Below are positions 10,659-31,066 of a DNA stretch of 42,314 nt, one piece after another. Every line of letters starts with the position of its first letter. Position 1 is the first letter of the stretch. The notes beneath the pieces are model-generated. The model saw nothing but the letters and a program-made list of their open reading frames with translations, was not told where the DNA came from and did no database searches. Source of the DNA: Alphaproteobacteria bacterium (GTDB taxonomy: Bacteria; Pseudomonadota; Alphaproteobacteria; Sphingomonadales; Sphingomonadaceae); NCBI GenBank assembly GCA_030431435.1, contig JAUIJI010000010.1, forward strand, positions 1-42,314, given 5' to 3'. Position numbers and translations under genes: made by a program.

Positions 10659-10668
10659 ATCACGCATC

Positions 10669-11658: not shown

Positions 11659-11668
11659 GAGGGGATTC

Positions 11669-13650: not shown

Positions 13651-14480
13651 GCAGCGCGGCTGTCAGGCGTGTGCCGCGCGCGGCGGTGATCGGCGTCACC
13701 ATGGCCGCAGGGCTGATGGTGTTGCCGATGCTGTGGGTGCTGATCCTGTCGCTGAAAGACAGTTCGGCGCTCATGGCGGATACTACCACCGCTTTCTCCC
13801 CGCCCTGGACGCTGGTCAATTACGCCAACATCGTCGGGGACGGGCAGGTGGCCGTGTGGTTGCTCAATTCCACCATCGTCTCGCTGCTGATGACAGGGGG
13901 CGTTCTGTTCCTGTCTTCGCTGGCAGGATACGGCTTCGCGCGACTGGAATTCCCGGGGAGGAACATCCTCTTCATCGTCGTGCTGTTCGGTCTCGCCATT
14001 CCGGAGCAGGCAGTGATCATCGGCCGGCACCAGCTGTTTGCCGCAGCAGAAATGCACAACACCTATACCGCCCTTGTCATGCCCGGTCTGTCCGCGCCCT
14101 TCGGCGTGTTCCTGATGACGCAATATTTCCGCGCCATTCCCAGGGAGATCGACGAGGCAGCGATGCTCGACGGCGCTTCGCGCTTCCGCGTGTTCTGGCG
14201 CGTGCTGCTGCCGCTCACAGTTCCCGCGCAAGCGACATTGGGCATCTTCACCTTCTTCCATGCATGGAACGATTACTGGTGGCCGCTGATTTCGGCGACC
14301 AATCGCGACATGCTGACGCTGACGGTCGGCATCGCTGCCAGCCAGCAGAACTTCGCGCAGGCCGAAGGGCTCGGCTTCCTGATGGCACAGGCGGTGTTCG
14401 CCGGCCTGCCGGTGCTGATCATCTACGTCATTTTCCAGAAGTATATCGTGCGCGCAGTCGCCGGGGCAGCGGGCCAGTGA
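13647..14480 (+). CDS. CUT1 sugar ABC transporter permease 2 (MalG type)
   Basis: Second inner-membrane permease, 277 residues, about six hydrophobic segments. The EAA loop reads IPREIDEAAMLDGASRFRV and then FWRVLLPLTVPA. ATG 13647 overlaps the stop of permease 1 (ATGA), so expression is coupled; the frame is open further upstream but only within permease 1. C-terminal segments such as FFHAWNDYWWPLI are typical of MalG-like partners in CUT1 systems. It pairs with the permease encoded just before it. Confidence 0.9.
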   Translation: MSSAAVRRVPRAAVIGVTMAAGLMVLPMLWVLILSLKDSSALMADTTTAFSPPWTLVNYANIVGDGQVAVWLLNSTIVSLLMTGGVLFLSSLAGYGFARLEFPGRNILFIVVLFGLAIPEQAVIIGRHQLFAAAEMHNTYTALVMPGLSAPFGVFLMTQYFRAIPREIDEAAMLDGASRFRVFWRVLLPLTVPAQATLGIFTFFHAWNDYWWPLISATNRDMLTLTVGIAASQQNFAQAEGLGFLMAQAVFAGLPVLIIYVIFQKYIVRAVAGAAGQ

Positions 14481-15799
14481 TGCCCCTGCGCTACCTCGCC
14501 TTTCCTCTCGCGGCGCTGGCTGCGCTGTCCGCCTGCGGTGAACGCGATGATCGAACAGAAATCACCGTGCAGCGGTTCTTTGGCGCTTGCCAGGCCGAAT
14601 ATGGCGACGTCATCGATCCGCAAGAGGCAGAGGGCGAGTGCGGCATCATCACCGCGATGATCAACCAGTTCGAAGCGGAAAACCCGGATATCAAGGTGGT
14701 GGAGAACACCGTGTTCTGGCCGGGGTACGACCAGCTCACCTCGCAGATCGCCGCCAACGGCCCGCCCGATGTGGTGACGATGCACAGTTCCGCCATCCCC
14801 GATTACGAGGCGCGCGACCTGCTCGAACCGCTTGGTGAAGACCTGCCTGCGCTGGGCCTGACCGCTGACGATTTCACCGCCGCCGCCCGCGCCGGGGTGA
14901 CGGTGGATGGCGAGGTCATGGGCATCCCGATCGATGTCTGGGCGCCGCTTTGGCACATCAACTTGAACCTGTTCCGCGAAGCCGGGCTGGTCGATAGCCA
15001 AGGCCGCCCGATCATGCCGCGGAGCACGGAGGAATTCCTCGAGCATGCCGACAGGTTCGTGGAAGCAACGGGCAAGCCCTATTTCATCCAGGTGACGACC
15101 AAGGACCTCGCCGGTCCCTCGCGCATATTCCAGGTCTACATGATGCAGCAGGGCGATCCGGTCTTCCCTGATCCGCGCCACGCCGATTTCGACAATGCCA
15201 GGGGCCGCGAAGTGCTGAAGTTCATGCGCGACGTCTATGCAGGCGGATACAGTGTGCGCGACCAGGACTATGCCGCCAATGTCTCTGCCTTCCTTCGCGG
15301 AATGGGTGGCATACTCGTCGATGGCACATGGATGGTGGGGCAGTTCGATGCCGCCGCGCATGATCCCGACAGCCCGCTCTACCAGGGCTATGCCGTGCGT
15401 CCGGTGCCGATGATGTTCGACGGGCCGCCGGTGTCGCTGGTGGACGGGCACAACTGGGTCATGCCGCGCGACAGTTCGCGCACACCCGAAGAGCGCGCCG
15501 CGGCGCTGCGCTTCCTCCGCTTCTTTGCCGAGAACGATTTCCAGTGGGCGCGCACCGGCCATTTCCCGGCCTATCGCCGGATCATCGACAGCGCGCAGTG
15601 GCAAGGCCTGCCGCACCGCGACGATATTGCCATCATCACCGAGATCGGCCAGCCGCTGCCCAATTACGTGCGGCGGCAGGCTCCGATCGAACTGATCGTG
15701 GGCGAGGAAGTATCCGCCGCCTTCACTGGTGCCAAGCCGATCGATGCCGCCTTGCGCGACATGGAGCGGCGCACCAACGACGTGCTGCAAAGTTTTTGA
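14480..15799 (+). CDS. Sugar ABC transporter substrate-binding lipoprotein
   Basis: Extracytoplasmic solute-binding protein of 439 residues, family 1 (MalE-like). The N-terminus is a lipoprotein signal with lipobox LSAC (Cys19), which implies membrane anchoring in the periplasm. Binding-protein landmarks include AENPDIKVV near residue 70, YDQLTSQIAANGPPDVVTMHSS, GIPIDVWAPLWHINLNLF and GGILVDGTWMVGQF. The ATG at 14480 overlaps the permease 2 stop by one base (TGATG). Substrate cannot be read from sequence; position next to GH51 suggests arabino-oligosaccharides. Confidence 0.9.
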   Translation: MPLRYLAFPLAALAALSACGERDDRTEITVQRFFGACQAEYGDVIDPQEAEGECGIITAMINQFEAENPDIKVVENTVFWPGYDQLTSQIAANGPPDVVTMHSSAIPDYEARDLLEPLGEDLPALGLTADDFTAAARAGVTVDGEVMGIPIDVWAPLWHINLNLFREAGLVDSQGRPIMPRSTEEFLEHADRFVEATGKPYFIQVTTKDLAGPSRIFQVYMMQQGDPVFPDPRHADFDNARGREVLKFMRDVYAGGYSVRDQDYAANVSAFLRGMGGILVDGTWMVGQFDAAAHDPDSPLYQGYAVRPVPMMFDGPPVSLVDGHNWVMPRDSSRTPEERAAALRFLRFFAENDFQWARTGHFPAYRRIIDSAQWQGLPHRDDIAIITEIGQPLPNYVRRQAPIELIVGEEVSAAFTGAKPIDAALRDMERRTNDVLQSF

Positions 15800-15815
15800 C
15801 CAACCGGAGAATGTA

Positions 15816-17324
15816 ATGCTCAAGGCAAGCGTGATAGCCGATCGCGACTTCACCATCGGCGAACTGGACCGCCGCGTGTTCGGCTGTTTCGTCGAACATT
15901 TGGGCCGCTGCGTCTATGGCGGCATCTACGAACCCGGGCACGAAACCGCCGATGAGGAAGGTTTTCGCGGCGACGTGATGGCGCTGGTGAAGGAGCTGGG
16001 CGTCACCATCATGCGCTATCCGGGCGGCAATTTCGTCTCTGGCTATGACTGGCTGGACGGTGTCGGCCCGAAGGAGGATCGCCCGCGCAAGCTCGATCTC
16101 GCCTGGTTCTCGACCGAAACCAACCAGTTCGGCACTAACGAGTTCGTCAGCTGGTGCCGCAAGGCGGGGGTGGAACCCATGCTGGCGGTGAACCTTGGAA
16201 CTGCCGGCCCGGACGAAGCGCGCAACCTCGTCGAATATTGCAACCATCCGGGCGGGTCCTACTGGTCCGACTTGCGCCGTTCGCATGGCTATGAGGAGCC
16301 GCACAACATCACCTACTGGTGCCTCGGCAACGAAATGGATGGCCCCTGGCAGATCTGCCACAAGAACGCGCAGGAATACGGCCGGGCGGCCAAGGAAGCA
16401 GCCAAGGTCATGCGCTGGACCAGCGAGGGGCTGACGCTGGCCGCCTGCGGTTCGTCCTTCCGCGAAATGCCGACCTATGGTGCCTGGGAATACGAGGTGC
16501 TGGACGAGGTGTTCGACGAGGTCGATTTCATCTCGCTGCACCAGTATTTCAAGAATGACGAGCAAGATACGGCACGCTTCTTCAGCCATGTCGACAAGCT
16601 CGACAGCTTCATTACCGAGGTGACGGCGATCGCCGATGCGGTTGCGGCCAAGCGCCACAGCCCCAAGCGGATCATGCTCTCGCTTGACGAATGGAACGTC
16701 TGGTATCGCACGCGCAGCGGCACAGATACGAAGCAGCCCGGCTGGCCCGAAGCGCCCAAACTGCTAGAGGAAGTCTACAATTTCGAAGATGCGCTGGTGG
16801 TGGGCGGGGCGTTGATCACCCTGATGAACCATGCCGACCGGGTAAAAACCGCCTGCCTCGCGCAGCTTGTCAACGTGATCGGGGCGATCATGACGCAAAC
16901 CGGCGGCCCTGCATGGCGGCAGACGATCTTCCATCCCTTCGCTCAGGCGAGCGCGCTGGCGCGTGGCAATGTCCTGCGGCTGGTGGTGGATACCCCGACT
17001 TTCGAGGCCGGGAGCTATCCCGAAGCGCCAGTGCTGCTGTGCGCAGCTGTCCACGATCCCGACAGCGGGCAGGTGAGCGTGTTCGCGTTGAACCGCAGCC
17101 TGACCGATGCGATGGAGTTTGCGCTCGACCTGCGGGGCAAGGGCGCGTTCACGCTCGCCGAAGCCAAGGAGCTGCATCACGCTGATCTGCAGGCCAGCAA
17201 TACCGTGGACGCACAGGACGAGGTTTCGCCCGACAACCACCCCGATTGCAGCTATGACGGGATGCTGACCGCGAAGCTCAAGCCGCTGTCATGGAACGTC
17301 TTCGTGCTGCAGCCCCGGGCCTGA
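15816..17324 (+). CDS. GH51 alpha-L-arabinofuranosidase, cytoplasmic
   Basis: Retaining arabinofuranosidase of 502 residues, the usual GH51 length. The acid/base is Glu173 in GNEMDGPW and the nucleophile is Glu292 in SLDEWNVWY. Other family marks are FGCFVEHLGRCVYGGIYEP at the N-terminus and MRYPGGNFVSGYDW. A beta-sandwich domain forms the last 130 or so residues. There is no signal peptide, so it trims arabinose from imported arabino- or arabinoxylo-oligosaccharides in the cytoplasm. ATG 15816 is preferred because it follows CGGAGA and gives the family N-terminus. The gene lies 16 bases after the ABC binding protein and 33 before the aldolase, in one operon. Confidence 0.93.
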   Translation: MLKASVIADRDFTIGELDRRVFGCFVEHLGRCVYGGIYEPGHETADEEGFRGDVMALVKELGVTIMRYPGGNFVSGYDWLDGVGPKEDRPRKLDLAWFSTETNQFGTNEFVSWCRKAGVEPMLAVNLGTAGPDEARNLVEYCNHPGGSYWSDLRRSHGYEEPHNITYWCLGNEMDGPWQICHKNAQEYGRAAKEAAKVMRWTSEGLTLAACGSSFREMPTYGAWEYEVLDEVFDEVDFISLHQYFKNDEQDTARFFSHVDKLDSFITEVTAIADAVAAKRHSPKRIMLSLDEWNVWYRTRSGTDTKQPGWPEAPKLLEEVYNFEDALVVGGALITLMNHADRVKTACLAQLVNVIGAIMTQTGGPAWRQTIFHPFAQASALARGNVLRLVVDTPTFEAGSYPEAPVLLCAAVHDPDSGQVSVFALNRSLTDAMEFALDLRGKGAFTLAEAKELHHADLQASNTVDAQDEVSPDNHPDCSYDGMLTAKLKPLSWNVFVLQPRA

Positions 17325-17357
17325 TCCTGTATCCAACCAATTATCGAAGGAGTTGCC

Positions 17358-18116
17358 ATGCCCCCGTTCAAGAAACAGCTCGAGCAGGATCGCCCGCTGA
17401 TCGGCCTCTGGCAGGCTCTGGCCAGTGGCTATTCGGCGGAAATCTGCGCCCGCCAGGGTTTCGACTGGCTGCTGCTCGACGCCGAGCATTCGCCCAATGA
17501 CATGCAGACGCTGCTGTCGCAGGCGCAGGCCATCGCACCTTTCGAATGCGAGGTGATCACGCGTGTCCCTTTCGGGGAGCCGGTGGTGATCAAGCAGTAT
17601 CTGGACATGGGGCTGCACACGCTGCTGGTGCCGATGGTCGAGACGGCCGAGCATGCCGAAGCGCTGGTCCGCGCCTGCCGCTATCCGCCGCATGGCATCC
17701 GCGGCGTGTCGAGCGCCACGAGCCGCGGGGCCAATTTCGGCGTAAACACCAACTACCTTCACGAAGCCAACGACATGGTGACGCTGATCGTGCAGATCGA
17801 AAGCACCAAAGGCGTAGAGAATATCGACGAAATTGCTGCGGTGGAGGGTATCGACGCGATGTTCATCGGCCCGTCCGACCTTGCCGCTTCGATGGGGCTG
17901 TTGGGGCAGCCCCTGCACGCTGACGTGACAGAGGCGATCGGCAAGGCCAAGGCGGCGATGGACCGCGCGGGCAAGCCGGCGGGCATCTTCGCCCTGAACC
18001 CCGACCACGCGCGCCAGTGCATCGCTGATGGCTTCCAGTTCCTCTCGGTCGGCACCGACATCGGTCTCATCATCTCCGGTGCCCAAAAGGTTCTGGGCGA
18101 GGTTCGCGCCGAATAA
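17358..18116 (+). CDS. HpcH/HpaI-family class II aldolase for a keto-deoxy sugar acid
   Basis: Metal-dependent pyruvate aldolase of 252 residues. It is predicted to split 2-keto-3-deoxy-pentonate (arabinonate or xylonate) into pyruvate and glycolaldehyde. Metal ligands are Glu148 (VQIESTKG) and Asp174 (GPSDLAASMG). The catalytic base region is LDAEHSPND with His44, and the conserved Arg is in RVPFGEP. The same family includes HpaI, GarL and RhmA aldolases, so the exact substrate is inferred from neighbours. A good ribosome binding site (GAAGGAG) precedes ATG 17358. It is the last gene of the A4 operon. No dehydratase or ketoglutarate-semialdehyde dehydrogenase of the alternative Weimberg route is seen in the window. 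Confidence 0.85.
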   Translation: MPPFKKQLEQDRPLIGLWQALASGYSAEICARQGFDWLLLDAEHSPNDMQTLLSQAQAIAPFECEVITRVPFGEPVVIKQYLDMGLHTLLVPMVETAEHAEALVRACRYPPHGIRGVSSATSRGANFGVNTNYLHEANDMVTLIVQIESTKGVENIDEIAAVEGIDAMFIGPSDLAASMGLLGQPLHADVTEAIGKAKAAMDRAGKPAGIFALNPDHARQCIADGFQFLSVGTDIGLIISGAQKVLGEVRAE

Positions 18117-18156
18117 GGCCAGCCCGCCGGGTGAGCCTTTGCGCCAAGCCCAGCGC

Positions 18157-19794
18157 CTACTCGCGGCAGCTGAAGCTCGCGGCATCATCAGGGTCGCCGC
18201 CATCGTAACGGGCCACCTTGGGATAGGGGCATAGCGGGCGCGAGACGCCGGGAAACGCATTGCCCGTCGCCACCACGCGGTCAGGCGCCTTGTCCTGTTC
18301 GACCCAGTCGACGATAGCATCGAGCATTTCGAACTGGTCAGTCGCCTCGCCGCCGCCGCAATGGAGCATGCCCGGCACGCCGAAAAAGCGCACTGCCTCG
18401 CGTCCCGGTTCGCCGGTTGCGGCCACCATGTCCTCGTACCAGCGCACGATATGCGGCGTGGACATGCCCTGGTCCGACATGCCGTTATAGACGATCATCT
18501 TGCCGTGCAGCGCGAAGGTGGAGAGGAACGGACTGTCGGCATCGCCGATCCCGCCCTGGTGGCGGATGCGCGCGAGCAGATCGTCGATATCGTAAGGTGC
18601 CAGCGGATCCCAGTCCGGGTCCGGAGGGGTCAGTTGAAGGTAGCGGAACATGCCCAGTCCCAGCGTAGCATCGCCCGCAGTCATCTCGCCATCATCGCCG
18701 CTGCCCATGCGGATACCGCGCCATGCGGGCGAGGCAATGCCGGTATCGTAAGTGAACGGACCGTAGAGATATTCGCCGCTCGAACTGCGCGGCCCCGCTT
18801 TCAGTTCTTCCAGCGCATCGACCTGCTCTGCAGAGAGGCAACTGTCGGTCTTTGCCCCGCTGCAGGCCAGCACCTCGGGAGAATAGCCGCAGGACTGCCA
18901 GTCGTTGATCATCCCGTCGGCCAGCCCGTCCAGCGCGTCGCACTGATCGAGCACCGAGGTGCGGACGAGTTGCAGGTCATTGTCGGAGAAGGCGCGTGAC
19001 AGGATTGGCCGTCCCTGCGCGTCCCTGGGCGAGATATCGGCAAGAACCTTCAGGTTCCACACTTGGCCCAGGCCCAGGCGCGAGAAACTCATCGCGGGGT
19101 CGCCGGCAACAATTCCGTCAAATTCCAGCGGGAAGCGCTGCGCTGCGATCAAGCCCTGCCGACCGCCATTGGAACAGCCGATGAAATAGGAATGGCCGGG
19201 GCCTTGCCCGTAAAGCTGCGCGATCAGGGACTTGGAAAGGGCAGTCACCTCGCCGATCGCATTATAGGCGTAATCGACGCGCGCCTGCTGATCGAGGCCG
19301 AAGGTCGCATCGATCGGTGATCCCTGGTGTCCGGCGTCAGTCGATACCACCGCGAATCCGCGGGTAAGGGCAGGCTGCGCGGACGAATTCGCAACTGTTC
19401 CGATTGCCGCGCCGATCACCCCGTCAAGGCCGCCGCCACCCTGGAACATGAAGCGTCCGCTCCAGTCCTCGGGCAGTCGCAGTTCGAAGCCGATCCCGAA
19501 TTCGCGCCCTCCCACACCGGTGCGCGGATTGATCGTTCCCTTGACCAGGCAATGGGCGGGCAAGTGCGCCGAAGGTGCGCCGGGAGGAGCAGGGGCGGGA
19601 CCGGCCAGTTGCAGCGAAGCGGTGGATATAACAAGGTCTTCCCTGCCGTTGCCGGCGAGGGATGCACAACGCTCTGTAAAGGCCACCTCGCCCTGCGCGC
19701 TGGCGCTGTCGCCCCAAGCTACAAGCCCTGCAACCGCAGCGACCGGGAGGCAGGCTCCTGCCATCAAGGCAACCGAGTATGCACGCTTGTTCAT
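18157..19794 (-). CDS. Secreted tannase/feruloyl esterase-family hydrolase
   Basis: Exported esterase of 545 residues with a signal peptide (about residues 1-34, ending ASAQ). It carries the full CS-D-HC arrangement of the tannase/feruloyl esterase family: Cys207-Ser208 in GCSNGGRQG, Asp441 in GMSDQGMS, and His478-Cys479 in MLHCGGG, where the two cysteines form the disulfide joining nucleophile and base. Expected reactions are release of ferulate or other phenolic acids, or hydrolysis of gallate-type esters. A strong GGGGGAG ribosome binding site precedes the ATG. It converges on the aldolase gene and is followed, with about 200 bases between, by the TonB receptor on the same strand. It may serve arabinoxylan deacylation or the phenolic chemistry of region B. 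Confidence 0.87.
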   Translation of the reverse strand: MNKRAYSVALMAGACLPVAAVAGLVAWGDSASAQGEVAFTERCASLAGNGREDLVISTASLQLAGPAPAPPGAPSAHLPAHCLVKGTINPRTGVGGREFGIGFELRLPEDWSGRFMFQGGGGLDGVIGAAIGTVANSSAQPALTRGFAVVSTDAGHQGSPIDATFGLDQQARVDYAYNAIGEVTALSKSLIAQLYGQGPGHSYFIGCSNGGRQGLIAAQRFPLEFDGIVAGDPAMSFSRLGLGQVWNLKVLADISPRDAQGRPILSRAFSDNDLQLVRTSVLDQCDALDGLADGMINDWQSCGYSPEVLACSGAKTDSCLSAEQVDALEELKAGPRSSSGEYLYGPFTYDTGIASPAWRGIRMGSGDDGEMTAGDATLGLGMFRYLQLTPPDPDWDPLAPYDIDDLLARIRHQGGIGDADSPFLSTFALHGKMIVYNGMSDQGMSTPHIVRWYEDMVAATGEPGREAVRFFGVPGMLHCGGGEATDQFEMLDAIVDWVEQDKAPDRVVATGNAFPGVSRPLCPYPKVARYDGGDPDDAASFSCRE

Positions 19795-19995: not shown

Positions 19996-22356
19996 TTAAT
20001 AGTTGAAACGCAGCTGCACGGCTACCGAACGCGGGCGTTCGGCAAGTGCTGCAACGGTCCCGTTTGCACCGCTCACAGTCTGGCGGAATCCGGCGGTCGC
20101 CTTGTCGGTGAGGTTCTTGCCGATCAGGGCGATTTCCCAGAGCCCGTCCTGCGGACCAACGCCGACACGCAGGTCAAACTTGGCGAATCCGTCCTGACGG
20201 ATCAGGTCATCCGCAGTCGAGGACTGATAGTACCAGGAAGTGAAGTAAGCGGTCGGTGAGACGCGCACTTCCAGGTCGCCTGCAGGGATGATGGCATCGA
20301 ACCTGACGTTGCCGCTCCATTCCGGAGCATAGCCGCGGCGCTTGCCCGACAGGTCCTGACGGCGGTTGATGCAACCCGCGTCTTCGCCAACCAGTGTCTG
20401 CAGCTGGGTGCAGGGTGCACCGTCATAGTCCCGGTACACAGCATCGAGATAGGCAATATCCGTGCTGGCGGTCAGCCAGTCCGACAGGCGGACGCTGCCC
20501 GAAAACTCGATACCTTCCGAACGCGCCGAGGCAGCATTGGCCACGCTGACGCGGACCGAGCCACTGGGCAGCGTTTCGGAGACCGATTCCTGCAAGCCGC
20601 TGTAATCCGCCCGGAACGCGCTGAGGGCATAGGTGACAGCACGATCGAACAGGCTGCCCTTGACGCCGATTTCATAGGCATCGACCGTTTCCGGACCGAA
20701 GTCGCCACCGGTCGAACCGCCGCTGTAGCCACCGGCCTTGAAGCCCTTGCTGTAGGTGGCATAGGCGGTGAGGTCAGGCGTCGCTTCGTATTGCAAGCCG
20801 ATGGAAGGCATCAGCTTGTCGTCCTTGCGATTGGGATTGGCGAAGTTCAGGTTCGATGAGCCGAGGATGGCATTCAGCGTATCGCTGGAATCCTGGCTTC
20901 CAGCGACGAAGGTTTCCGGGCGCGGGTCGGTGGCATCCGCCGTGCCGTAGATCACACTGCGGAAGCCGTCCTTCTCGACCGATGAGTAGCGCAGGCCAAG
21001 ATTGATCTTGAACCGGTCAACCGGGGTGATGGTGGCAGCAGCAAAGACCGACTTGGTCTCGCTATCCTCGTTGATCGAAAGCCTGCCCGAGATAGGGGAA
21101 TTCGCATCGTAACCGGGCACACCCACGCCGAAGGGGCGGAAGTAGAAACCCGTGACGCCGTTGTTGCGCAGCTTGGTATCGGAATAGAATGCGCCGATCT
21201 GCCATTCGACAGTGCGGCCAAGCGGAGAGACGAGCCGGACTTCCTGCGACCACTGGCGGAAGGATTCGCGCTGGAACACCGGCAGCTGGCCGCCGCCGCC
21301 GATCCCGGGGACGGGCGACGGCACGAGCTGCTGCAGATATTCGGTATCGTGGTCGAAATAGCCGGTTATCGTGTTCAGCACGTATTCGCCGATGTCGATT
21401 TCATTGGTCCAGCCCACTTCCGTGAAGGAATAGTCGAGGTATCCCGGAGGGCTGTTGTTCTGCCAGTTCAGTTCATCGTCCACCATGCCGCCGGCAGCAG
21501 TCAGATAGCTGCCGCAGGTCGGGCCGGTGGGGAAGGGTGCCGGGGGCGGGCAGTTCTCGATTTCGTAGGGGAGGAAATCTTCCGAATTGGTGCTGCCCAC
21601 ATCCACCCTGAGGTCGGAGCGGAAGCCCACGGGGTTGTAAGATAGCGACAGGCGGCCAACCTCGTTCTGTTCCTGCGAGCCCTTCTCGCCGGTGAATTCG
21701 TTGTCGACAAATCCGTCCATGCCCGAAAGGCGTCCGGCGGCGCGGAAGCTCAGGTCCTGTGCAATCGGAACGGTGAAGCCTGCTTCGACGTTGTATTCGC
21801 CATGCGACCCGTACAGCGCCGTGCCGTTGATCTCGAATGTATCGCCCGGCTTGCGTGTCGTGATGTTCAGTGCACCGGCGATGGCGTTGTTGCCGAAGAA
21901 GGTCGTCTGCGGGCCCTTGAGGATTTCCACACGCTCGACGTCAAACAGGGCGGCGCGAATGGCGCGCGGCCGCGAGCGGTAAACACCATCAACGAAAGTG
22001 GCGACCGATTGTTCGAAGCCGGTGTTGTTGGAGGAACCGATACCGCGAATGTTCAACTGGTCGAATGGTCCGGGCGTGATCCGCACGTTGGCCTGGCGAT
22101 CAGCGACTGCAGCAAGGTCAAGCAGGTTGTCGCGGGCGATCGTGTCACCACCGACAACGGCGATCGAGATCGGCACGTCCTGCTGGTTCTGCTCGCGCCG
22201 CTGCGCGGTCACCAGGATGACATCCGATGGTCCAGCCGCCTCGGCGGCCTGCTGGCCGTCGTTCGCCGTATCCTGGGCAAATGCCGGATTTGCGGCGAGA
22301 CAGCAGGCCATGATAGCCACCGCGCTGCAATGCGAACCGAGAATACTTGCTTTCAT
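19996..22356 (-). CDS. TonB-dependent outer-membrane receptor 1
   Basis: Outer-membrane active transporter of 786 residues. A signal peptide occupies about 1-28 (MKASILG...NPAFAQ). The plug domain follows, with VTAQRREQNQQDVPISIAVV and NIRGIGSSNNTGFEQSVATFVDGVYRSRP, then LKGPQTTFFGNNAIAGALNI. The C-terminus is a beta-barrel ending in aromatic VAVQLRFNY. ATG 22356 is chosen because a strong AAAGGGAG site precedes it and it gives a proper signal peptide, although the frame stays open to 22506. This receptor style is abundant in sphingomonads for aromatic and polymeric nutrients, not only iron. Palindrome B1 lies about 214 bases upstream, and the promoter region is shared with the divergent NTF2-like gene. 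The substrate is unknown. Confidence 0.9.
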   Translation of the reverse strand: MKASILGSHCSAVAIMACCLAANPAFAQDTANDGQQAAEAAGPSDVILVTAQRREQNQQDVPISIAVVGGDTIARDNLLDLAAVADRQANVRITPGPFDQLNIRGIGSSNNTGFEQSVATFVDGVYRSRPRAIRAALFDVERVEILKGPQTTFFGNNAIAGALNITTRKPGDTFEINGTALYGSHGEYNVEAGFTVPIAQDLSFRAAGRLSGMDGFVDNEFTGEKGSQEQNEVGRLSLSYNPVGFRSDLRVDVGSTNSEDFLPYEIENCPPPAPFPTGPTCGSYLTAAGGMVDDELNWQNNSPPGYLDYSFTEVGWTNEIDIGEYVLNTITGYFDHDTEYLQQLVPSPVPGIGGGGQLPVFQRESFRQWSQEVRLVSPLGRTVEWQIGAFYSDTKLRNNGVTGFYFRPFGVGVPGYDANSPISGRLSINEDSETKSVFAAATITPVDRFKINLGLRYSSVEKDGFRSVIYGTADATDPRPETFVAGSQDSSDTLNAILGSSNLNFANPNRKDDKLMPSIGLQYEATPDLTAYATYSKGFKAGGYSGGSTGGDFGPETVDAYEIGVKGSLFDRAVTYALSAFRADYSGLQESVSETLPSGSVRVSVANAASARSEGIEFSGSVRLSDWLTASTDIAYLDAVYRDYDGAPCTQLQTLVGEDAGCINRRQDLSGKRRGYAPEWSGNVRFDAIIPAGDLEVRVSPTAYFTSWYYQSSTADDLIRQDGFAKFDLRVGVGPQDGLWEIALIGKNLTDKATAGFRQTVSGANGTVAALAERPRSVAVQLRFNY

Positions 22357-22675
22357 CTTTCTCCCTTTCGTCCTTTGGCCGGATTGGCGGGCGGGCAGTC
22401 GCCGTGAGCACATCTGCCTGCGCCGGCTGGCCAGGCCGACTTTTTTCACGAACAAATTGTCGAGAGGTGCGAAGGAGGTAGGCCCAGGCTTCGCCTGAGA
22501 GGCCATTTTCCCTGTCTTAACATCCTCCCCCGTCCCGCAATGTTGCGGTTACGAGAATGCGCGCTAAAATATAACGATCGTTACAAGTGTCAACAGGAAG
22601 TGGAATCGAAAGCTGCGATCCGGCCACTGGGTCGGCCAACCTGTCAGGAGCGATTAGAGAGAGGAAATAAAATCA
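22357..22675. other. Divergent intergenic region with operator B1 and an inverted repeat
   Basis: These 319 bases separate the divergent receptor and first NTF2-like genes. They hold palindrome B1 (22570-22585) and a second inverted repeat, CCGCAATGTTGCGG, at 22535-22548. No gene is supported here; the receptor frame continues into it without a ribosome binding site. Confidence 0.6.
22570..22585. promoter_or_regulatory. Predicted MarR-regulon operator B1
   Basis: TATAACGATCGTTACA contains the perfect 12-bp palindrome TAACGATCGTTA and is identical to B4 at 27695. It is 91 bases upstream of the NTF2-like gene at 22676 and in the promoter region of the divergent receptor. The overlapping TATAAC could be a -10 box. 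Confidence 0.75.
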
Positions 22676-23107
22676 ATGACATACATTAGACAAGCTTCGC
22701 TTGAGGAGGCTGCGAGTGACGAATATTCGCGCAAAACCGCACGCAATCGCGAGGCGTTTCTGGACTTTGTCCGCCTGTATTATGACGAAATGAAGGTGCG
22801 GGAAGCTTTCGAACGTTACGTAGATGAGGGCTATATCCAGCATAATCCTGCGGTCGTGGATGGCAGGGAAGCGGCGATTGCGCACCTCGATGGGCTGCTC
22901 GAAAGGCCGACCGTTTCCATGGATGTGCGCCGCGTTCTCGTGGATGGTGATTATGCGGTTGCCCACCTGATCGGCCGTCAGGGGCCGGAGGATCCCGGCC
23001 ATGCCCTGATGAACATCTTCCGCATGGAGGACGGTATCATCATGGAACACTGGGACGTAGCCCAGCCGATCCCCGAAAAGACGGCGAGCGGCAGGGGCAT
23101 GGGTTAG
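22676..23107 (+). CDS. SnoaL/NTF2-like protein 1 (predicted aldol-condensation type)
   Basis: Small cone-shaped NTF2-fold protein of 143 residues, resembling the SnoaL-like family predicted to catalyse aldol-type or dehydration steps. Key family stretches are YVDEGYIQHNPAVVDGREA and FRMEDGIIMEHWDVAQPIP, with His in IQHN and EHWD as probable pocket residues. There is no signal peptide, so it is cytoplasmic. A paralogue with the same two motifs is encoded at 23837, on the other side of the MarR gene. The gene sits downstream of B1 and is predicted to be co-controlled with the receptor. The substrate cannot be deduced. Confidence 0.8.
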   Translation: MTYIRQASLEEAASDEYSRKTARNREAFLDFVRLYYDEMKVREAFERYVDEGYIQHNPAVVDGREAAIAHLDGLLERPTVSMDVRRVLVDGDYAVAHLIGRQGPEDPGHALMNIFRMEDGIIMEHWDVAQPIPEKTASGRGMG

Positions 23108-23111
23108 TAAT

Positions 23112-23128
23112 CCCCTTGCGCGCAGGGG
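23112..23128. terminator. Short hairpin between convergent NTF2-like and MarR genes
   Basis: CCCC and GGGG flank the self-complementary TGCGCGCA, giving a compact GC-rich hairpin in the 28-base gap where the two genes converge. It is a candidate bidirectional terminator; no long T-tract is present. Confidence 0.4.
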
Positions 23129-23135
23129 CGGCGTT

Positions 23136-23639
23136 TCAGGCGTCGTTCGCAGGTTTGGCGGGCCGGGTGCGTTCCATGAACAGCGAACGACCCTGCTCGT
23201 CTTCTGCCTCAAGCGTATCGATAAGCGTTTCAAGGATGTGTTCGAGCGTAATGATCTCGTGCTGCCTGAGCCCGGATAGCAAGTAATCGGCCACCTGGTC
23301 GGTTGCCGGGCGCATGGCGCGGAACAGGCGCTCGCCTTCCTCGGTCAGGGTCAATTGCTTGCGGCGGCGATTGGTGGGGTCGGGCTTGCCAACCACGCGA
23401 CCATTTTTCTCCAGCGTAGTCACCGCGCGCGAGATGCTCATCACATTGACGCCTGTCAGCTCCACCAGCTTGTGGCTGGCGAGAGAGCCGTAATGGCCGA
23501 TTTGCATCATCACGCGGAATTCGTTCAGCGTGATGTCGTGTTGTCTTGCCAGGTAGGTCGAAAAAGGCGCCATGAGCCGGTTTGCCAACTTGAGGATGCC
23601 GTGCATCAGTTTGGCATTGCGGTCGAGATCTGATTGCAT
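23136..23639 (-). CDS. MarR-family transcriptional regulator
   Basis: Winged-helix regulator of 167 residues. Dimerisation helices lie at both ends (GILKLANRLMAPFSTYLARQHD and the C-terminal LRQHEIITLEHILETLIDTL). The DNA-binding part is seen in LVELTGVNVMSISRAVTTLEKNG and the wing GKPDPTNRRRKQLTLTEEG. ATG 23639 is chosen because the family homology begins there and AGAAGAGGGG precedes it; the frame stays open 78 bases further. It is the only regulator in region B and its gene lies next to palindrome B2 (109 bases upstream), so it is the natural candidate to bind the four B elements, including its own. MarR proteins often respond to phenolic ligands, which fits the tannase next door. Confidence 0.88.
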   Translation of the reverse strand: MQSDLDRNAKLMHGILKLANRLMAPFSTYLARQHDITLNEFRVMMQIGHYGSLASHKLVELTGVNVMSISRAVTTLEKNGRVVGKPDPTNRRRKQLTLTEEGERLFRAMRPATDQVADYLLSGLRQHEIITLEHILETLIDTLEAEDEQGRSLFMERTRPAKPANDA

Positions 23640-23747
23640 GGGCCCCTCTTCTTTTATCCAGCATCTCCGTGCACTGGCGCAACCTTTGCTGATAATTGCG
23701 TTACAAAGCTGATACAAGCTGAAGGTGGTCGGCTCGTTGCAATACTA

Positions 23748-23763
23748 TATAACGAACGTTACA
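23748..23763. promoter_or_regulatory. Predicted MarR-regulon operator B2
   Basis: TATAACGAACGTTACA differs from the perfect element at 24309 in two of 16 positions. It lies between the divergent MarR gene (start 23639) and NTF2-like gene (start 23837), well placed for autoregulation and control of the latter. Confidence 0.7.
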
Positions 23764-23836
23764 AGTCCTGCTTGTATGACAGGATAACGCAGGCTGGCAA
23801 TTCCCCGCAAAAGCCAGCACCAGAGGAGAGATGTCG

Positions 23837-24253
23837 ATGAGTGAAGGGCAATCGCTGGAGGACCGCAATACCGAGATCGTGCTGAACATGTGGAAAGGCG
23901 TGATCTATGAGGGCAAGCGCGAGGCGGTCCTTAAATATATCCACCCCGACTACATCCAGCACAATGTCAACATGCCTTCCGGGCGGGAACATGTGCTGCA
24001 CCTTGTGGACCTGATCAACAACAAGCCTGCGGACTTCACTCCACCCGGGCACAAGACGCTGTTGCGCGCTGTTGCGCAAGGCGATTTCGTGGTCGTGATC
24101 TGGGAACAGGAACAGCCCGATCCGAACGAACCCGGCAAGACCTACACCGGACATGCCTTCGACATGTTCCGGCTGGAGGACGGGTTGATCATGGAGCACT
24201 GGGATGACACGCGCAAATGGCCCCGCCCGTGGAACGAGGAGAAGGCGGACTGA
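23837..24253 (+). CDS. SnoaL/NTF2-like protein 2, paralogue of the gene at 22676
   Basis: NTF2-fold protein of 138 residues with the same two hallmark stretches as protein 1: YIHPDYIQHNVNMPSGRE and FRLEDGLIMEHWDDTRKWP. ATG 23837 is preferred to ATG 23831 because AGGAG lies eight bases upstream of it but only two from the other. It is cytoplasmic with no signal peptide. The two paralogues bracket the MarR gene, each beside a B palindrome, which suggests duplication with the promoter element or recruitment to related steps of one pathway. The function is probably enzymatic (dehydration, isomerisation or aldol-type), but no activity is proven for this subgroup. Confidence 0.8.
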   Translation: MSEGQSLEDRNTEIVLNMWKGVIYEGKREAVLKYIHPDYIQHNVNMPSGREHVLHLVDLINNKPADFTPPGHKTLLRAVAQGDFVVVIWEQEQPDPNEPGKTYTGHAFDMFRLEDGLIMEHWDDTRKWPRPWNEEKAD

Positions 24254-24308
24254 ACTCCCCGGCCTGCCTGAAGCGTGATCGGGCAGGACCTGCAAGCCTT
24301 GCGAAAAG

Positions 24309-24324
24309 TGTAACGATCGTTACA
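24309..24324. promoter_or_regulatory. Predicted MarR-regulon operator B3 (perfect palindrome)
   Basis: TGTAACGATCGTTACA is a perfect 16-bp palindrome, the best of the four copies. It is 49 bases upstream of the next NTF2-like gene and in the 119-base gap after the previous one, so it marks a separate promoter for the two-gene unit starting at 24373. Confidence 0.78.
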
Positions 24325-24372
24325 AATGCTTGGCGTGGATAACGGCCAAAGGCCAATGAAGGGAGAGTCCGG

Positions 24373-25017
24373 ATGGCAGATGATGCGGCGCTTGAAAGTT
24401 TGCGCCAGACAGTCGCAAGGCTGGAAGAGCAGGTGTCCCACTTGCGCAGCAAGGCAGCAGTCTCTGAAGCGCATCTGGAAATAAGCAACCTGCAGGCGAC
24501 TTATGGCTATTATGTCGACAAGGGTTTGTGGGACGAAGCAGCGGACCTGTTCACGCAGGACGGGACGCTCGAGATCGCAGGGCGCGGCGTTTATGTCGGC
24601 CAGGACCGCGTTCGCCAGTATCTGCATGCGCTGCCACCCTATGAACGCGGGACCATCTTCAATCATATGCAGTTGCAACCGGTGATCCACTGCGATCCGG
24701 AAGCAGGCACCGCAAAGGGCCGCTGGCGGGCCTTCATCCTGATTGCGTGGCTTGGCGGTGAAGCCCGTTGGGGCGAAGCTGTGTATGAAAACAGGTATCA
24801 GCTGGTCGACGGCGTCTGGCGCATTTCGGCACTGCACGCCTTCATCACCTTCTATGCCGAATATGATCGCGGGCCCAATCACGGCGGTGTGCCGATGGTC
24901 CGCTCGATCGAAGGCCTCAAGCCCGACCGGCCGCCAAGCCACGATTACGAGGCATTCCCCGAAATCTTCGTGCCGCCATTCCATTATGCCAATCCGGTGA
25001 GTGGCAAGCCATGGTGA
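24373..25017 (+). CDS. SnoaL-like (SnoaL_4 type) NTF2 protein 3 with coiled-coil N-terminus
   Basis: Protein of 214 residues. Residues 1-40 form a probable coiled coil (LESLRQTVARLEEQVSHLRS). The NTF2-fold domain follows from about 40 to 165, with ATYGYYVDKGLWDEAADLF, GRGVYVGQDRVRQYL, FNHMQLQPVI and ENRYQLVDGVWRISALHAF. A C-terminal tail is rich in proline and aromatic residues (PPSHDYEAFPEIFVPPFHY). This subgroup is common in sphingomonads. The NTF2-like lignin dimer lyases LsdE/LdpA show what such a fold can do, but whether this gene is close to them needs alignment. Operator B3 lies upstream and the next gene overlaps by seven bases, so the pair is translationally coupled. Confidence 0.78.
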   Translation: MADDAALESLRQTVARLEEQVSHLRSKAAVSEAHLEISNLQATYGYYVDKGLWDEAADLFTQDGTLEIAGRGVYVGQDRVRQYLHALPPYERGTIFNHMQLQPVIHCDPEAGTAKGRWRAFILIAWLGGEARWGEAVYENRYQLVDGVWRISALHAFITFYAEYDRGPNHGGVPMVRSIEGLKPDRPPSHDYEAFPEIFVPPFHYANPVSGKPW

Positions 25018-25892
25018 ACCAGCTGGACAAGCCGCTCGATCGCGCCGCGCTATACGCTGTTCTCGACAATTACATCGAAGCGCTGCTCGCGCGCGATCCG
25101 GGCCGGGTGAGATGGGCGCCCGATTGCTTCATCACGGAGAACAACGTTGCCCTGCGTGTGGGAGACGGTGTCTGGGGCACGGCAACCGGCCGCGGCAGCT
25201 ATGACCTGCGCTTTGCCGATCCTGCCACCGGCCAGGTTGGCCTGTTTACCACCCTTGTGGAAACCGACGAGGAATCGGCGGCCACCCTGCGGATTGCCGT
25301 CGATGCAACCGGCGCAATCCGCGAAGCCGAAACGCTGATCGTTCGCCAGAGCGACGAAGCGCTTGTCTTCCCTGACCCGAAGTTCGAGACCAAGCCGGTA
25401 CTCGAAGCCGTGGTGCCCGAGAGCGAACGGATGAGCCGGGAGCGGCTGCGCGCGGTTGCTGATGGGTATTTCAACACGCTGGAGCAGAATGACGGGCAGC
25501 TGTTCACCCGCTTCCACCCGGATTGCAACCGCGTGGAAAATGGTGTGCAGACTTCCAACAATCCCGATTTCTTCCTGCCGATCGGCGGACTGTCCTGCGA
25601 AGAGCAGTTCAAGCTGGGCTGGTATCGCTACGATGACCGGCTGCGCGGTCGCCGCTATCCGCTGTTCGATGAGGAGCGCGGCCTGGTTATGGCCTATGCC
25701 TTTATCGACCACTGCGGGCGACTGGCCGATTACACCCTGAGTGATGGCGAGCATGTGAAATCGCTGATCAGGCGACCGCACACCTTCTACCTGGCCGAAC
25801 TGTTCAGGATCGAACAGGGGGCCATCCGCCAGATCGAAGCGAATTTCATCACCGTACCCTACCACATGCCATCGCCCTGGGGCGGACGGTAA
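25011..25892 (+). CDS. Uncharacterised protein with two probable NTF2-like domains
   Basis: Cytoplasmic protein of 293 residues that I recognise only at fold level. Each half starts with an NTF2-like helix pattern: LYAVLDNYIEALLARDP near residue 11 and RLRAVADGYFNTLEQND near 145. A strand-rich segment follows each (LFTTLVETDEESAATLRIAVD; RGLVMAYAFIDHCGRLADY). The tail TVPYHMPSPWGG recalls the proline-rich end of its neighbour. Similar proteins occur in bacteria and fungi as uncharacterised families. Its ATG overlaps the stop of protein 3 (seven bases), so the two are made together and may act on the same substrate or form a complex. Confidence 0.65.
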   Translation: MVNQLDKPLDRAALYAVLDNYIEALLARDPGRVRWAPDCFITENNVALRVGDGVWGTATGRGSYDLRFADPATGQVGLFTTLVETDEESAATLRIAVDATGAIREAETLIVRQSDEALVFPDPKFETKPVLEAVVPESERMSRERLRAVADGYFNTLEQNDGQLFTRFHPDCNRVENGVQTSNNPDFFLPIGGLSCEEQFKLGWYRYDDRLRGRRYPLFDEERGLVMAYAFIDHCGRLADYTLSDGEHVKSLIRRPHTFYLAELFRIEQGAIRQIEANFITVPYHMPSPWGGR

Positions 25893-25959
25893 GCAAGCCG
25901 GCAGGCTGGTGCGGCGGCGCGAGAAACCCCGCCGCCGCACCGCCGACAGTCACATCGGT

Positions 25960-27561
25960 TCAGGCATTCACGCGCAAGCCCTTGAGCACGTGGTCGGATC
26001 CCTTGTCACCAACCATGATGGCGGTGGCGTTGGTGTTGCCCGAAGGAAGGCTTGGGAACACCGATGCATCGGCAACCCAGAGGCCCTCGAGCCCCAGCAC
26101 CTTGAGATCGGGGTCCACCACGGCCATCGGATCGTCCTTCTGCCCGATCTTTGCGGTTCCCACCGGGTGATACATGGGGATAGCGGCCATGCGCACATAC
26201 TCGCGCAGTTGGGCGGGATCGGTCAGCTGCGGGCCCGGGCGCAGTTCTGACGTGACATAGCCCGCAACCGGTGACTGCTCGAGTATCTCGCGCGCGATCC
26301 CGATTCCCTCGACGATCTGGTCCACATCGTCGTCTGTCGAAAGCTGCTTGTGATGGATCACCGGCGGATCAAGCGGGTCGCCGGAACGCAGGGTAATGGA
26401 TCCGCGATATGCCGGCCGCATCAACCCTACCAGCGTGGAGACCGAGGGGTTCTTGCGCAGCATCAGGCGGCCCTGCTCGTCAAAGTCGAAAGCGAAAGCC
26501 GCGAAGGATATCTGCAGGTTGGGCGCGGGCAGGTCTGGCCGACTTTTCACGAACGCCTGCGCGTGGCCGATCGAGGTGCTGAGCGCTCCCTTGCGGCCCA
26601 GAGCATAACGAAGCACAGACATCGCGCCGCGCAGCCCGCGTGCATCATCGTTGAGCGTGGTGGCGTTCACTTCGTTCACCACATGGGTACCGACATGGTC
26701 CTGCAGGTTGCGGCCCACGCCGGGCAGGTCGCGAACGACATCGATGCCCATTTCCGCCAGATGCTGGGCTGGCCCGATGCCGGACAGCATCAGCAGGCGC
26801 GGCGTGTTCATTGCGCCGGCACTCAGCACCACGCCATGCTTGGCATGCAGTTCCTTCCTCGTGCCGTCTTGCATGTAGACGATGCCGGTCGCGCGACCGT
26901 TATCCACGATGATCTGCAGCACTTGCGCTTCGAGCAGTATTTCCGGTCCATCGCTCGATTTTGAATCACGCAGGTAACCGCGCGCGGATGAACAGCGTTC
27001 ACCCTTGCGCTGCGACACCTGCACATAATCCACCCCTTCGGCCCGTTCGCCGTTGAGGTCGCGCCGTTCGATGCCGGTGTTTTCCGCCGCCTTTATCCAG
27101 GCTTCGGTGATGGGGTAGGTGGCGCGCCCCTCGGATACCGCGATCGGCCCGCCCACGCCGCGCCACTCGTCCGCGCCGCGCTCGTTGTCTTCCATCCGCT
27201 TGAAATAGGGGAGGACGGATTTGTAATCCCAACCGGTGGCTCCGAGCTCAGCCCAATTGTTATAATCCCACTCGTGCCCCCTGATGAACATCATGCCGTT
27301 GAGCGCGCTGCCGCCACCCAGCAACTTGCCGGCAGGCCAGACATCCGCTCGCCCGCCAATCGTTTCGTCGGGCTCGGCCTTGAAGCACCAGTCGAACTGG
27401 GGATTCTGCACGATCGAGCTTGTAAGCGCAGGTACCCGTGATTTCAGGTGGGTGTCCGATGCACCGGCTTCCACCAATGTCACCTTCAGTCCTGCTTCGC
27501 TCAACCTTCCCGCCATGGCGCAGCCAGCAGACCCGCCACCGATTACAATTACGTCTGTCAA
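25960..27561 (-). CDS. GMC-family FAD-dependent alcohol oxidoreductase
   Basis: Flavoprotein of 533 residues of the choline dehydrogenase/glucose oxidase family, expected to oxidise an alcohol to an aldehyde or ketone. The FAD motif is [19 protein letters not shown] at the N-terminus. GMC signatures are [24 protein letters not shown] and [17 protein letters not shown]. The catalytic His lies in [10 protein letters not shown] and the second polar residue in GNTNATAI. There is no signal peptide or Tat motif, so it is cytoplasmic. The start is TTG at 27561, after GAGAGG. Palindrome B4 lies 134 bases upstream, which puts it in the same predicted regulon as the NTF2-like genes although it is on the other strand. 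Confidence 0.9.
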
Positions 27562-27694: not shown

Positions 27695-27710
27695 TATAAC
27701 GATCGTTACA
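27695..27710. promoter_or_regulatory. Predicted MarR-regulon operator B4
   Basis: TATAACGATCGTTACA is identical to B1. It lies in the gap between the GMC oxidoreductase gene (start 27561) and the end of the MFS gene (27764), so the GMC gene is its only sensible target. Confidence 0.75.
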
Positions 27711-29490: not shown

Positions 29491-29506
29491 ATGATAGCGT
29501 TTGCAT
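29491..29506. promoter_or_regulatory. Predicted LacI-regulon operator C1
   Basis: ATGATAGCGTTTGCAT has the central CG and outer ATG/CAT arms usual for LacI-family operators and matches C4 (40531) at 14 of 16 positions. It lies 31 bases upstream of the cytochrome gene and in the divergent region shared with the MFS gene. Confidence 0.7.
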
Positions 29507-29536
29507 CACTGCGCAAGAGACGGTTTGGAGAGAGCG

Positions 29537-31066
29537 TTGAAAAGGGTTGGACAGCCGCGACACCTACGTTTTGCAAAGGCGTTGCCGGTCATCGCTGCAG
29601 CTGGAGCCCTTGCGGCTGCCAGTGCTTACGCATCGGGTGGCGAGAGCGCTGCAGACGAACGCTGGTGGTCTCCGGGCGAGGGGCGCGTTTTTCCCGAGGT
29701 GCTGGATTACGAGAACGAACACGGCACCCTGAGGACTTTGCTGGTCGGTGGCCCGCTTGATACAGAAGGCCACCCTTTCTTCGAGCCGATCAGTTCCAAC
29801 GGCCGGGCATGCGTGACCTGCCACCAGCCTGCCGACGGGATGAGCCTGTCTGCTGCCACGGCGCGCGAACGCTGGGATGCGACCAATGGCGATGACCCCT
29901 TGTTTGCCGCCTATGACGGCTCCAACTGCCCGACCCTGCCGCAAGGCGAGCGTGCATCGCATTCATTGCTGCTGGACCGCGGGCTGATCCGGATCCAGCG
30001 CCAGTGGCCGCCTGCACCAAGACTGGGCGAAGAGGTGGTGCCCGACTTCACGATCGAGGTGGTGCGTGATCCCAACGGCTGCAATTCTGGTGCGGAATAC
30101 GGCCCCGAAAACGGTTGGATCTCCGTCTATCGCCGTCCGCGCCCCATCGGCAACATGAAGTACCTGCTGGCTGTCGGCTTCAATTTCGATCCGAAGCAGG
30201 GCCTTGCGCTGCCGCGCGATCCGGAGACGGGGGACTATCTTAGCGGCAACCTGATGTCTGACAACCGCGCATTCACCTTGAAAGAGCAGATGGATGATGC
30301 CGGGCTGACTCACCTGGAAATGCTGCGCGAACTGACGGATGATGAGCGCGACGCCATCAAGGCATTCGAGATGAGCCTGTTCGCCGCGCAGCAGACCGGG
30401 CGTGGCGGCGCAGTCGACGATGGCGGCGCGCAAGGCGGGCCGGCTGTGCTGCGTGATGCGGAGCCGGGCGAACTGGGGTCCATCGGCTTCCCGGTGTGGG
30501 GTGAATTCGCGGCCTGGGAAGAAATCAGCGAAGAGGATCGCGCCAGATTGACGCCCGAGCAGGTGGAATTCCGCCAATCAGTTGCGCGCGGCGCGCGCGT
30601 GTTTCGCGACCGGACTTTCCTGGTCTCCGATGCCGCTGGCGTGACGACCCAGATGGGCTTTGGCAATCCCTTCCGGGTGGCTTGCAAGATGTGTCACAAC
30701 ATGACCCGTATGGGGAATGACGTGGCGCCCGGGCAGGTTGACCTGGGCACCACTACGCTGCCGTTCGCTGACCATTTTGGCGATTTGCCGCTGTTCCGCA
30801 TCACCTGCCAGAACGATCCCCATCCCTATTACGGGCGCGAGATCCTGACTTACGATCCGGGTTTTGCGCTCTCCACCGGGCGATGTGCCGATGTCGGCAA
30901 GATCACCTTGCAATCCATGCGCGGGCTGGCTGCGCGCGCGCCCTATTTCTCCAACGGTTCTGCTGCGGATCTGCGCGCTGTCGTCGACTATTACGAACGG
31001 CGCTACAATATCGGCTATACCGAGCAGGAAAAGCAGGACCTGGTCAATCTGATGAGTGTGCTGTGA
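29537..31066 (+). CDS. Periplasmic di-heme c-type cytochrome, peroxidase/MauG-like
   Basis: Exported cytochrome of 509 residues. A signal peptide covers about 1-33 (basic start, hydrophobic core, ending AYASG). Two c-type heme motifs are present: CVTCH at 92-96 and CKMCH at 383-387. The order and C-terminal part (MRGLAARAPYFSNGSAADLRAVVDYYERRYN) fit the di-heme cytochrome c peroxidase/MauG superfamily. The protein is longer than classic bacterial peroxidases (about 320 residues), with about 290 residues between hemes. The RoxA-type rubber oxygenases belong to the same superfamily, so an oxidative role on a large substrate is possible, though unproven. TTG 29537 is chosen because GGAGAG precedes it and it gives the signal peptide. 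C1 is just upstream. Confidence 0.82.
   Translation: MKRVGQPRHLRFAKALPVIAAAGALAAASAYASGGESAADERWWSPGEGRVFPEVLDYENEHGTLRTLLVGGPLDTEGHPFFEPISSNGRACVTCHQPADGMSLSAATARERWDATNGDDPLFAAYDGSNCPTLPQGERASHSLLLDRGLIRIQRQWPPAPRLGEEVVPDFTIEVVRDPNGCNSGAEYGPENGWISVYRRPRPIGNMKYLLAVGFNFDPKQGLALPRDPETGDYLSGNLMSDNRAFTLKEQMDDAGLTHLEMLRELTDDERDAIKAFEMSLFAAQQTGRGGAVDDGGAQGGPAVLRDAEPGELGSIGFPVWGEFAAWEEISEEDRARLTPEQVEFRQSVARGARVFRDRTFLVSDAAGVTTQMGFGNPFRVACKMCHNMTRMGNDVAPGQVDLGTTTLPFADHFGDLPLFRITCQNDPHPYYGREILTYDPGFALSTGRCADVGKITLQSMRGLAARAPYFSNGSAADLRAVVDYYERRYNIGYTEQEKQDLVNLMSVL

Follow-up and report, generated by a model that had tools for sequence, protein, structure and literature searches.

A conserved sphingomonad gene cluster of NTF2-like proteins with a MarR-type regulator and a probable role in phenylpropanoid dimer breakdown

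The window analyzed here is the whole of a 42,314-nucleotide stretch from an alphaproteobacterium of the family Sphingomonadaceae (assembly GCA_030431435.1, contig JAUIJI010000010.1), and its subject is a gene cluster encoding four NTF2-like proteins (NTF2_1 to NTF2_4), a MarR-family regulator, a GMC oxidoreductase, and a TonB-dependent receptor. The cluster probably forms a regulon, repressed by MarR, through which a dimeric phenylpropanoid is taken up and broken down; this dimer would derive from lignin or lignans and carry a free phenol and a gamma-CH2OH group. On the best reading, it would cleave a gamma-hydroxymethyl phenylpropanoid dimer by a stilbene-forming route. The cluster itself is real, ordered, and conserved. 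Its gene content, orthology, and operator placement were computed, as were the fold and conserved His and Asp of NTF2_3 and the tandem fold of NTF2_4. Its features are as follows:

19996-22356, minus strand: TonB-dependent receptor, with Plug and barrel Pfam matches; the start is the Met of a likely signal peptide, chosen by reading
22572-22583, no strand: operator copy TAACGATCGTTA, between the TonB receptor and NTF2_1 genes
22676-23107, plus strand: NTF2_1, a short SnoaL_2 protein (PF12680, 39.3 bits; 3g0k, E 2.4e-17)
23136-23639, minus strand: MarR-family regulator (PF01047, E 1e-9)
23750-23761, no strand: operator copy TAACGAACGTTA, between the divergent MarR and NTF2_2 genes
23831-24253, plus strand: NTF2_2, a short SnoaL_2 protein (PF12680, 39.7 bits)
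24311-24322, no strand: operator copy TAACGATCGTTA, before NTF2_3
24373-25017, plus strand: NTF2_3, an LdpA-like SnoaL_4 protein with a long N-terminal helix (SnoaL_4, 100 bits; LdpA 8abt, E 1.4e-14)
25011-25892, plus strand: NTF2_4, a tandem-NTF2 protein without a Pfam or NCBIfam match, overlapping the end of NTF2_3 by 7 bases
25960-27561, minus strand: GMC oxidoreductase, with GMC Pfam domains; matches 8b7s, a chloramphenicol-inactivating oxidoreductase (508 bits)
27697-27708, no strand: operator copy TAACGATCGTTA, upstream of the GMC gene

A first-pass annotation, made from the letters and open reading frames, had placed four NTF2-like frames and a GMC oxidase at 22676-27561, and both Pfam and structural models agree with it. 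The two short proteins that it called paralogous are both SnoaL_2 proteins, 34.7% identical over 124 amino acids and above the Pfam cut-off of 27 bits. The TonB receptor it named is confirmed by Pfam and lies outside that interval, while the MarR gene lies inside it and is an addition. SnoaL_2 proteins are common in the window's genome (G000, 2.9 Mb), with 29 matches; despite this abundance, four NTF2-type genes within 3.2 kb form a dense group.

Conservation of the cluster was assessed with NTF2_4, which has a match in 49 of 397 genomes of the family, the window's own included; of the remaining 48, 13 were examined in longer stretches. A home-made caller supplied the gene calls and protein clusters for these loci, and starts are approximate. 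A first kind of locus (G102, G391, G144, G380) holds the TonB receptor, NTF2_1, MarR, NTF2_2, NTF2_3, NTF2_4, and GMC genes at 69-87% identity, with two to four operators each; in G380 (L059), the end of the stretch cuts NTF2_2, which is 67% identical over 39 amino acids. Relatives of the TonB receptor are 69-76% identical in all four orthologous loci read. Loci of a second kind (G115, G191, G066, G268, G136, G232, G013, G316, and contig C114 of the window's genome) combine relatives of NTF2_4 and of MarR, the latter 54-60% identical, with an operator of this pattern ahead of NTF2_4. In a separate scan of named genomes, 80 loci were retained from 140 relatives. The top-ranking locus belongs to Sphingobium sp. 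SYK-6 (L069, NC_015976.1), followed by loci of the Novosphingobium metagenome-assembled genome (MAG) SCN 66-18, Novosphingobium sp. MD-1, and N. profundi.

The window cluster and the SYK-6 cluster are orthologous, at 69-80% identity. The SYK-6 stretch is L058, with G144 taken as SYK-6, and L057 is that of G391. The window GMC protein is 79% identical to the one in the SYK-6 cluster and 37-41% identical to the five other GMC proteins found in SYK-6. L057 holds additional genes recognized by Pfam, namely DUF3237, a further SnoaL_2, two aldehyde dehydrogenases, SDR, MFS, and SnoaL_4, together with a carotenoid-oxygenase-family dioxygenase that scores 369 bits against LsdA (6ojr). L058 has the same protein clusters in identical order, and three more genes, for a VAO-type flavoprotein, a cytochrome c, and one more SnoaL_2 protein, come from another SYK-6 stretch. 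A lignostilbene-type dioxygenase lies inside the cluster in L057, L058, and L059. These lignostilbene dioxygenase, aldehyde dehydrogenase, DUF3237, and VAO-type genes of the orthologous loci support well the earlier suggestion that the module is catabolic and acts on an imported compound bearing an alcohol group.

SLG tags in SYK-6 were assigned by position, counting genes by ten and anchored on published tags; other SLG numbers are inferred, and on this numbering the MarR gene would be SLG_27860. One published table lists bzaA as SLG_27910, lsdF as SLG_27970, and a PinY homologue as SLG_27980 (PMC12997858), and LSD5 is SLG_27970 (PMC8191317). Position fits the aldehyde dehydrogenase of the SYK-6 cluster being bzaA, its dioxygenase lsdF, and its GMC protein the listed PinY homologue. 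A lysate containing LSD5 prefers lignostilbene over DCA-S (PMC8191317). The first-pass annotation knew of no pathway with this gene set, a view that holds in the literature searched, except that these three genes of the orthologous SYK-6 cluster are apparently already named. Among the matches listed for openly licensed literature, as excerpted, no pathway is assigned to the cluster under the SLG_278, SLG_279, and SLG_280 tags or gene-family terms. Excerpts on PheR and LigR hold nothing on the cluster, the best 20 of 597 matches on SYK-6 TonB receptors and transcriptomes gave no lead, and the operator string searched with MarR-type or lignostilbene returned only a soybean match.

The operator follows the pattern TAACG(A/T)(A/T)CGTTA. 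What had been described as one operator is one pattern in four copies, which begin at 22572, 23750, 24311, and 27697 and occupy four promoter regions of the window. At up to two mismatches, none of 100 shuffles reached at least four sites. In SYK-6, all four exact TAACGNNCGTTA copies of the genome lie inside the orthologous cluster, within 9.5 kb. The window's genome has 10 exact TAACGWWCGTTA sites against 0.18 expected from base composition alone: four in the window, two on C114, and one each on C20, C103, C65, and C123. Across the 80 named loci (1.42 Mb), there are 41 operator sites and 3 control sites. Where a named locus encodes a MarR protein at least 45% identical to that of the window, the operator is present in 18 of 19 cases, versus 4 of 61 where it does not. 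The MarR protein presumably binds the operator, and the cluster is probably regulated as a unit. A single operator site means little, and it is placement that carries the argument.

Such placement extends to unlinked loci of the window's genome. On C103, an exact operator stands 27 bp before the called start of a lignostilbene dioxygenase gene that directly follows ligA and ligB, and whose product scores 643 bits against LsdA of strain TMY1009 (6ojr). The orthologous dioxygenase of G102 (74% identical) has an operator 15 bp upstream. Of the two C114 operators, one lies before NTF2_4 and one before a run of GMC, SnoaL_2, SDR, and DUF3237 genes. The C114 DUF3237 protein, dioxygenase, and VAO-type protein share 76%, 66%, and 72% identity with their counterparts in the SYK-6 cluster; this flavoprotein, which resembles the SYK-6 one, matches vanillyl-alcohol and eugenol oxidases and p-cresol methylhydroxylase. 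Further operators lie between pyrroloquinoline quinone (PQQ) alcohol dehydrogenase and aldehyde dehydrogenase genes on C20 and before an SGL gene on C65. The gene set that is joined in SYK-6 is therefore spread over several places in the window's genome, under one operator throughout. PF03055 has ten matches in the window's genome, nine of them long and one partial, and DUF3237 has nine, on contigs such as C109, C18, C114, C103, C133, C154, C56, and C59. Eight lignostilbene dioxygenase homologues are reported for SYK-6 (PMC8191317).

The first-pass annotation had set absence of co-occurrence in other genomes as one refutation, and the genes do co-occur. A PF03055 match is present in 49 of 49 NTF2_4-positive genomes versus 148 of 348 negative ones (genome lists compared by eye; Fisher p 4e-17, which ignores kinship). 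Within the genus, the corresponding counts are 6 of 6 and 1 of 6. NTF2_3 relatives (E 1e-20) occur in 38 of the 397 genomes, 37 of which are NTF2_4-positive, again by eye. The operator count covered 60 genomes, half of them drawn from the 49 positive and half from the 348 negative ones; 25 of the 30 positive genomes and 7 of the 30 negative ones contain at least one operator. Within the genus, all five positive relatives have operators (4 to 9 sites each) versus none of six negative ones. Per genome, the reversed control pattern has 0 to 22 occurrences among the positive genomes and 1 to 21 among the negative ones.

LdpA entries head the sequence search with NTF2_3 (phmmer, E 1.4e-14), and the seven best fold matches of its model in the PDB (Foldseek) are all LdpA, which supports the LsdE/LdpA link proposed earlier for 24373-25017. 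The model has a pLDDT (predicted local distance difference test) of 89.9 and starts with a helix at residues 2-49, which fits the coiled coil read from the sequence. The LdpA matches include the H97Q mutant structure 8abu with bound erythro-DGPD. His-98 of NTF2_3 aligns with the mutated His-97 of LdpA, Asp-49 is the Asp of a YGYY-x-D motif, and both are invariant in 13 sequences. A His-Asp pair is the acid-base catalyst of such NTF2 proteins (PMC11476836). NTF2_3 resembles LdpA (formerly LsdE) and PcfL, the gamma-formaldehyde lyases of sphingomonads, in its SnoaL_4/NTF2 fold and in where the active-site His and Asp lie, and the operator of its cluster also stands before a lignostilbene dioxygenase gene. 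From sequence and model, NTF2_3 plausibly works like LdpA, though it is not LdpA itself. In SYK-6, about 15 kb beyond the GMC gene (G144:C1:3035804-3042405), three open frames, 661-842 codons long, contain three NTF2_3-like stretches apiece and are apparently multi-NTF2 fusion proteins.

NTF2_4 is a tandem-NTF2 protein of a family named by neither Pfam nor NCBIfam. No model of either database matches it at E 0.01, and no PDB sequence matches it up to E 5. Its AlphaFold2 model, built from 32 sequences, has a pLDDT of 92.9 and two NTF2-like helix-plus-sheet halves, in keeping with the two domains proposed from the sequence, and indicates a tandem-NTF2 fold. The three best fold matches are entries of the polyether epoxide hydrolase Lsd19 (E 3.6e-7), at a full-length TM-score of only about 0.33 and 13-14% identity, followed mostly by single-domain NTF2-like proteins. 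Lsd19 has the tandem NTF2-like architecture in common with NTF2_4; no polyether genes were seen among the annotated neighbors of NTF2_4. A plasmid search with NTF2_4 gave five records, the best at 39% identity. A relative at L049:16953-17939 (33%) has an apparent signal peptide, which suggests an exported branch of tandem-NTF2 proteins. In a third kind of locus (L087, L093, L098, L100, L105, L115, and similar), the NTF2_4 gene is divergent from two short SnoaL_2 genes, and the operator is absent.

The reactions, their order, and the substrate are what we infer from protein family and gene neighborhood. The TonB receptor would import the dimer, and the GMC enzyme would oxidize its gamma-alcohol, as PhcC and PinY do. 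The LdpA-like NTF2_3 would then remove the gamma-carbon and create a stilbene-type double bond; in relatives, a DUF3237 decarboxylase may remove this carbon, for which PinX, PhcF, and PhcG are precedents (both precedents, PMC12607616). The stilbene bond would be cleaved by the lignostilbene dioxygenase encoded elsewhere in the window's genome behind the same operator. The resulting aromatic aldehydes would be finished by aldehyde dehydrogenases, with ring opening by LigAB. NTF2_1, NTF2_2, and NTF2_4 are putative lyases, dehydratases, or isomerases for further stereoisomers or a quinone methide. A review suggests that a PcfL homologue could replace the oxidation-decarboxylation steps in such a pathway (PMC12997858).

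The suggested chemistry is that of known sphingomonad dimer pathways. The phenylcoumaran (DCA) pathway of SYK-6 (PhcC, PhcD, PhcF, PhcG, LsdD) has the same logic of GMC oxidation, DUF3237 decarboxylation, and dioxygenase cleavage, but its genes and loci are others. The DDVA regulon of SYK-6 (ddvT, ddvK, ddvR) likewise places a TonB receptor and a MarR-type repressor beside dimer catabolic genes, whereas its chemistry is that of a 5,5-dimer and the excerpt names no NTF2 protein or stilbene dioxygenase (PMC6874591). Somewhat short of an even chance is given to a more specific proposal, that in this dimer-cleavage route, in SYK-6 as well, cofactor-independent NTF2 enzymes, including the new tandem family, do most of the side-chain chemistry while the MarR operator unites unlinked dioxygenase and dehydrogenase loci. 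In such an NTF2-led route, the side-chain chemistry may comprise gamma-carbon loss, quinone-methide handling, and stereoisomer sorting.

Several observations weigh against the proposed dimer regulon. NTF2_3 is only 31% identical to the LdpA of SYK-6 (the stretch in L210, which reads like chain 8abv); the comparison was with LdpA rather than PcfL, and these two lyases share 44% identity (PMC11323797). NTF2_3 is closer to some other SYK-6 NTF2 proteins, at 34 and 38% (in the identity table, rows L150, L151, and L152 are one sequence entered three times from overlapping loci). The window's genome has a separate LdpA orthologue, 71% identical, on C20, and with that and the 31% identity, NTF2_3 was rejected as the LdpA orthologue. 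The His-Asp pair is common to NTF2-fold enzymes and so is no proof of deformylation. SYK-6 is reported to be unable to assimilate pinoresinol products fully (PMC12997858).

Further points concern the operator and the gene set. With one mismatch allowed, the window's genome has 17 operator sites and 12 reversed control sites, and per-genome control counts are often equal to or above operator counts. The operator is missing from 5 of the 30 NTF2_4-positive genomes, is present in 7 of the 30 negative ones, and is missing from most named loci without a MarR relative; L132 has a 57% identical MarR protein without an operator, and the NTF2_4 locus of G002 has neither a MarR relative nor an operator. 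Of the ten PF03055 matches in the window's genome, one has an exact operator in its locus and one (C56) a one-mismatch site. A search of the window's contig found no PF03055 or DUF3237 gene, and no VAO-like protein is among its called genes. The association tests also ignore shared ancestry.

Other explanations were weighed against the dimer regulon, and the strongest of them, though less likely than not, is a second pin-type pathway for beta-beta lignans. The pin pathway of Novosphingobium rhizosphaerae LY includes the GMC enzyme PinY and PinX with its DUF3237 domain (PMC12607616); on this reading, the GMC and DUF3237 proteins of the cluster would correspond to these two, the VAO-type protein and cytochrome c to PinW and PinV and the dioxygenase to PinU. 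The SYK-6 cluster, with its GMC oxidase, DUF3237 protein, VAO/p-cresol-dehydrogenase-type flavoprotein and cytochrome, and lignostilbene-type dioxygenase, represents every pin enzyme type but PinZ, five of the six, by a family member, and two of its genes by position, SLG_27980 and SLG_27970, are listed with PinY and PinU (PMC12997858). However, the listed SYK-6 homologues of PinZ (SLG_07320) and PinX (SLG_07290) lie elsewhere, and none is given as found for PinW and PinV in the excerpt of that list (PMC12997858). An LdpA-like enzyme is absent from the pin route as described, and the cluster adds four (window) to seven (SYK-6) NTF2 proteins, the MarR regulator and operator, and the TonB receptor. 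This comparison was made by family membership and the published homologue table rather than by Pin sequences.

It is improbable that the substrate is instead monomeric or a side chain, such as feruloyl esters or phenylpropanoid alcohols, freed with arabinoxylan by the neighboring tannase/feruloyl-esterase-like and glycoside hydrolase genes, with the dioxygenase link incidental. A tannase/feruloyl esterase family gene does adjoin the TonB receptor, GH3, esterase, and arabinofuranosidase genes lie beyond, and tannase-family genes occur in some loci of the second kind (L049, L061, L063). Yet the link to a dioxygenase is found repeatedly, either within the cluster or under the operator, and tblastn with the window tannase and arabinofuranosidase found no relative in L056-L059, where genes are partly annotated. 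Least probable, and very unlikely, is that the NTF2 proteins act outside a dimer route, as dehydratases or isomerases of other compounds such as steroids or terpenoids. The bile-acid dehydratase BaiE is the next best relative of NTF2_3, and the NTF2_4 architecture resembles Lsd19, but LdpA outscores BaiE in both sequence and fold. The terpenoid or polyketide substrates once proposed have nothing in their favor beyond that likeness to a polyether enzyme. A steroid, terpenoid, or polyketide route was rejected because no such genes are among the annotated neighbors.

The cluster adjoins plant cell-wall utilization genes at 1084-19794 of the window, comprising GH3, an esterase, an IlvD/Edd dehydratase, MFS, ABC importer parts, an arabinofuranosidase, and the tannase/feruloyl esterase family gene. 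On its other side, at 29501-31066, lies a 521-amino-acid heme protein, probably exported, with two CxxCH motifs found by eye and only weak di-heme enzyme matches, below cut-offs.

For sphingomonad biology, the physiological roles of the eight lignostilbene dioxygenases of SYK-6 were called undetermined in 2021 (PMC8191317), and 62 NTF2-superfamily homologues with unknown substrates have been counted in this strain (PMC12997858). In this model strain, lsdF, as assigned by position, is now tied to defined partners and a candidate repressor. Because a SYK-6 counterpart exists, the function of the cluster is directly testable, and a substrate search and gene deletions are straightforward. If the dimer regulon is true, the lignin toolkit would gain a route for dimers, a regulator, and a family of tandem-NTF2 enzymes.

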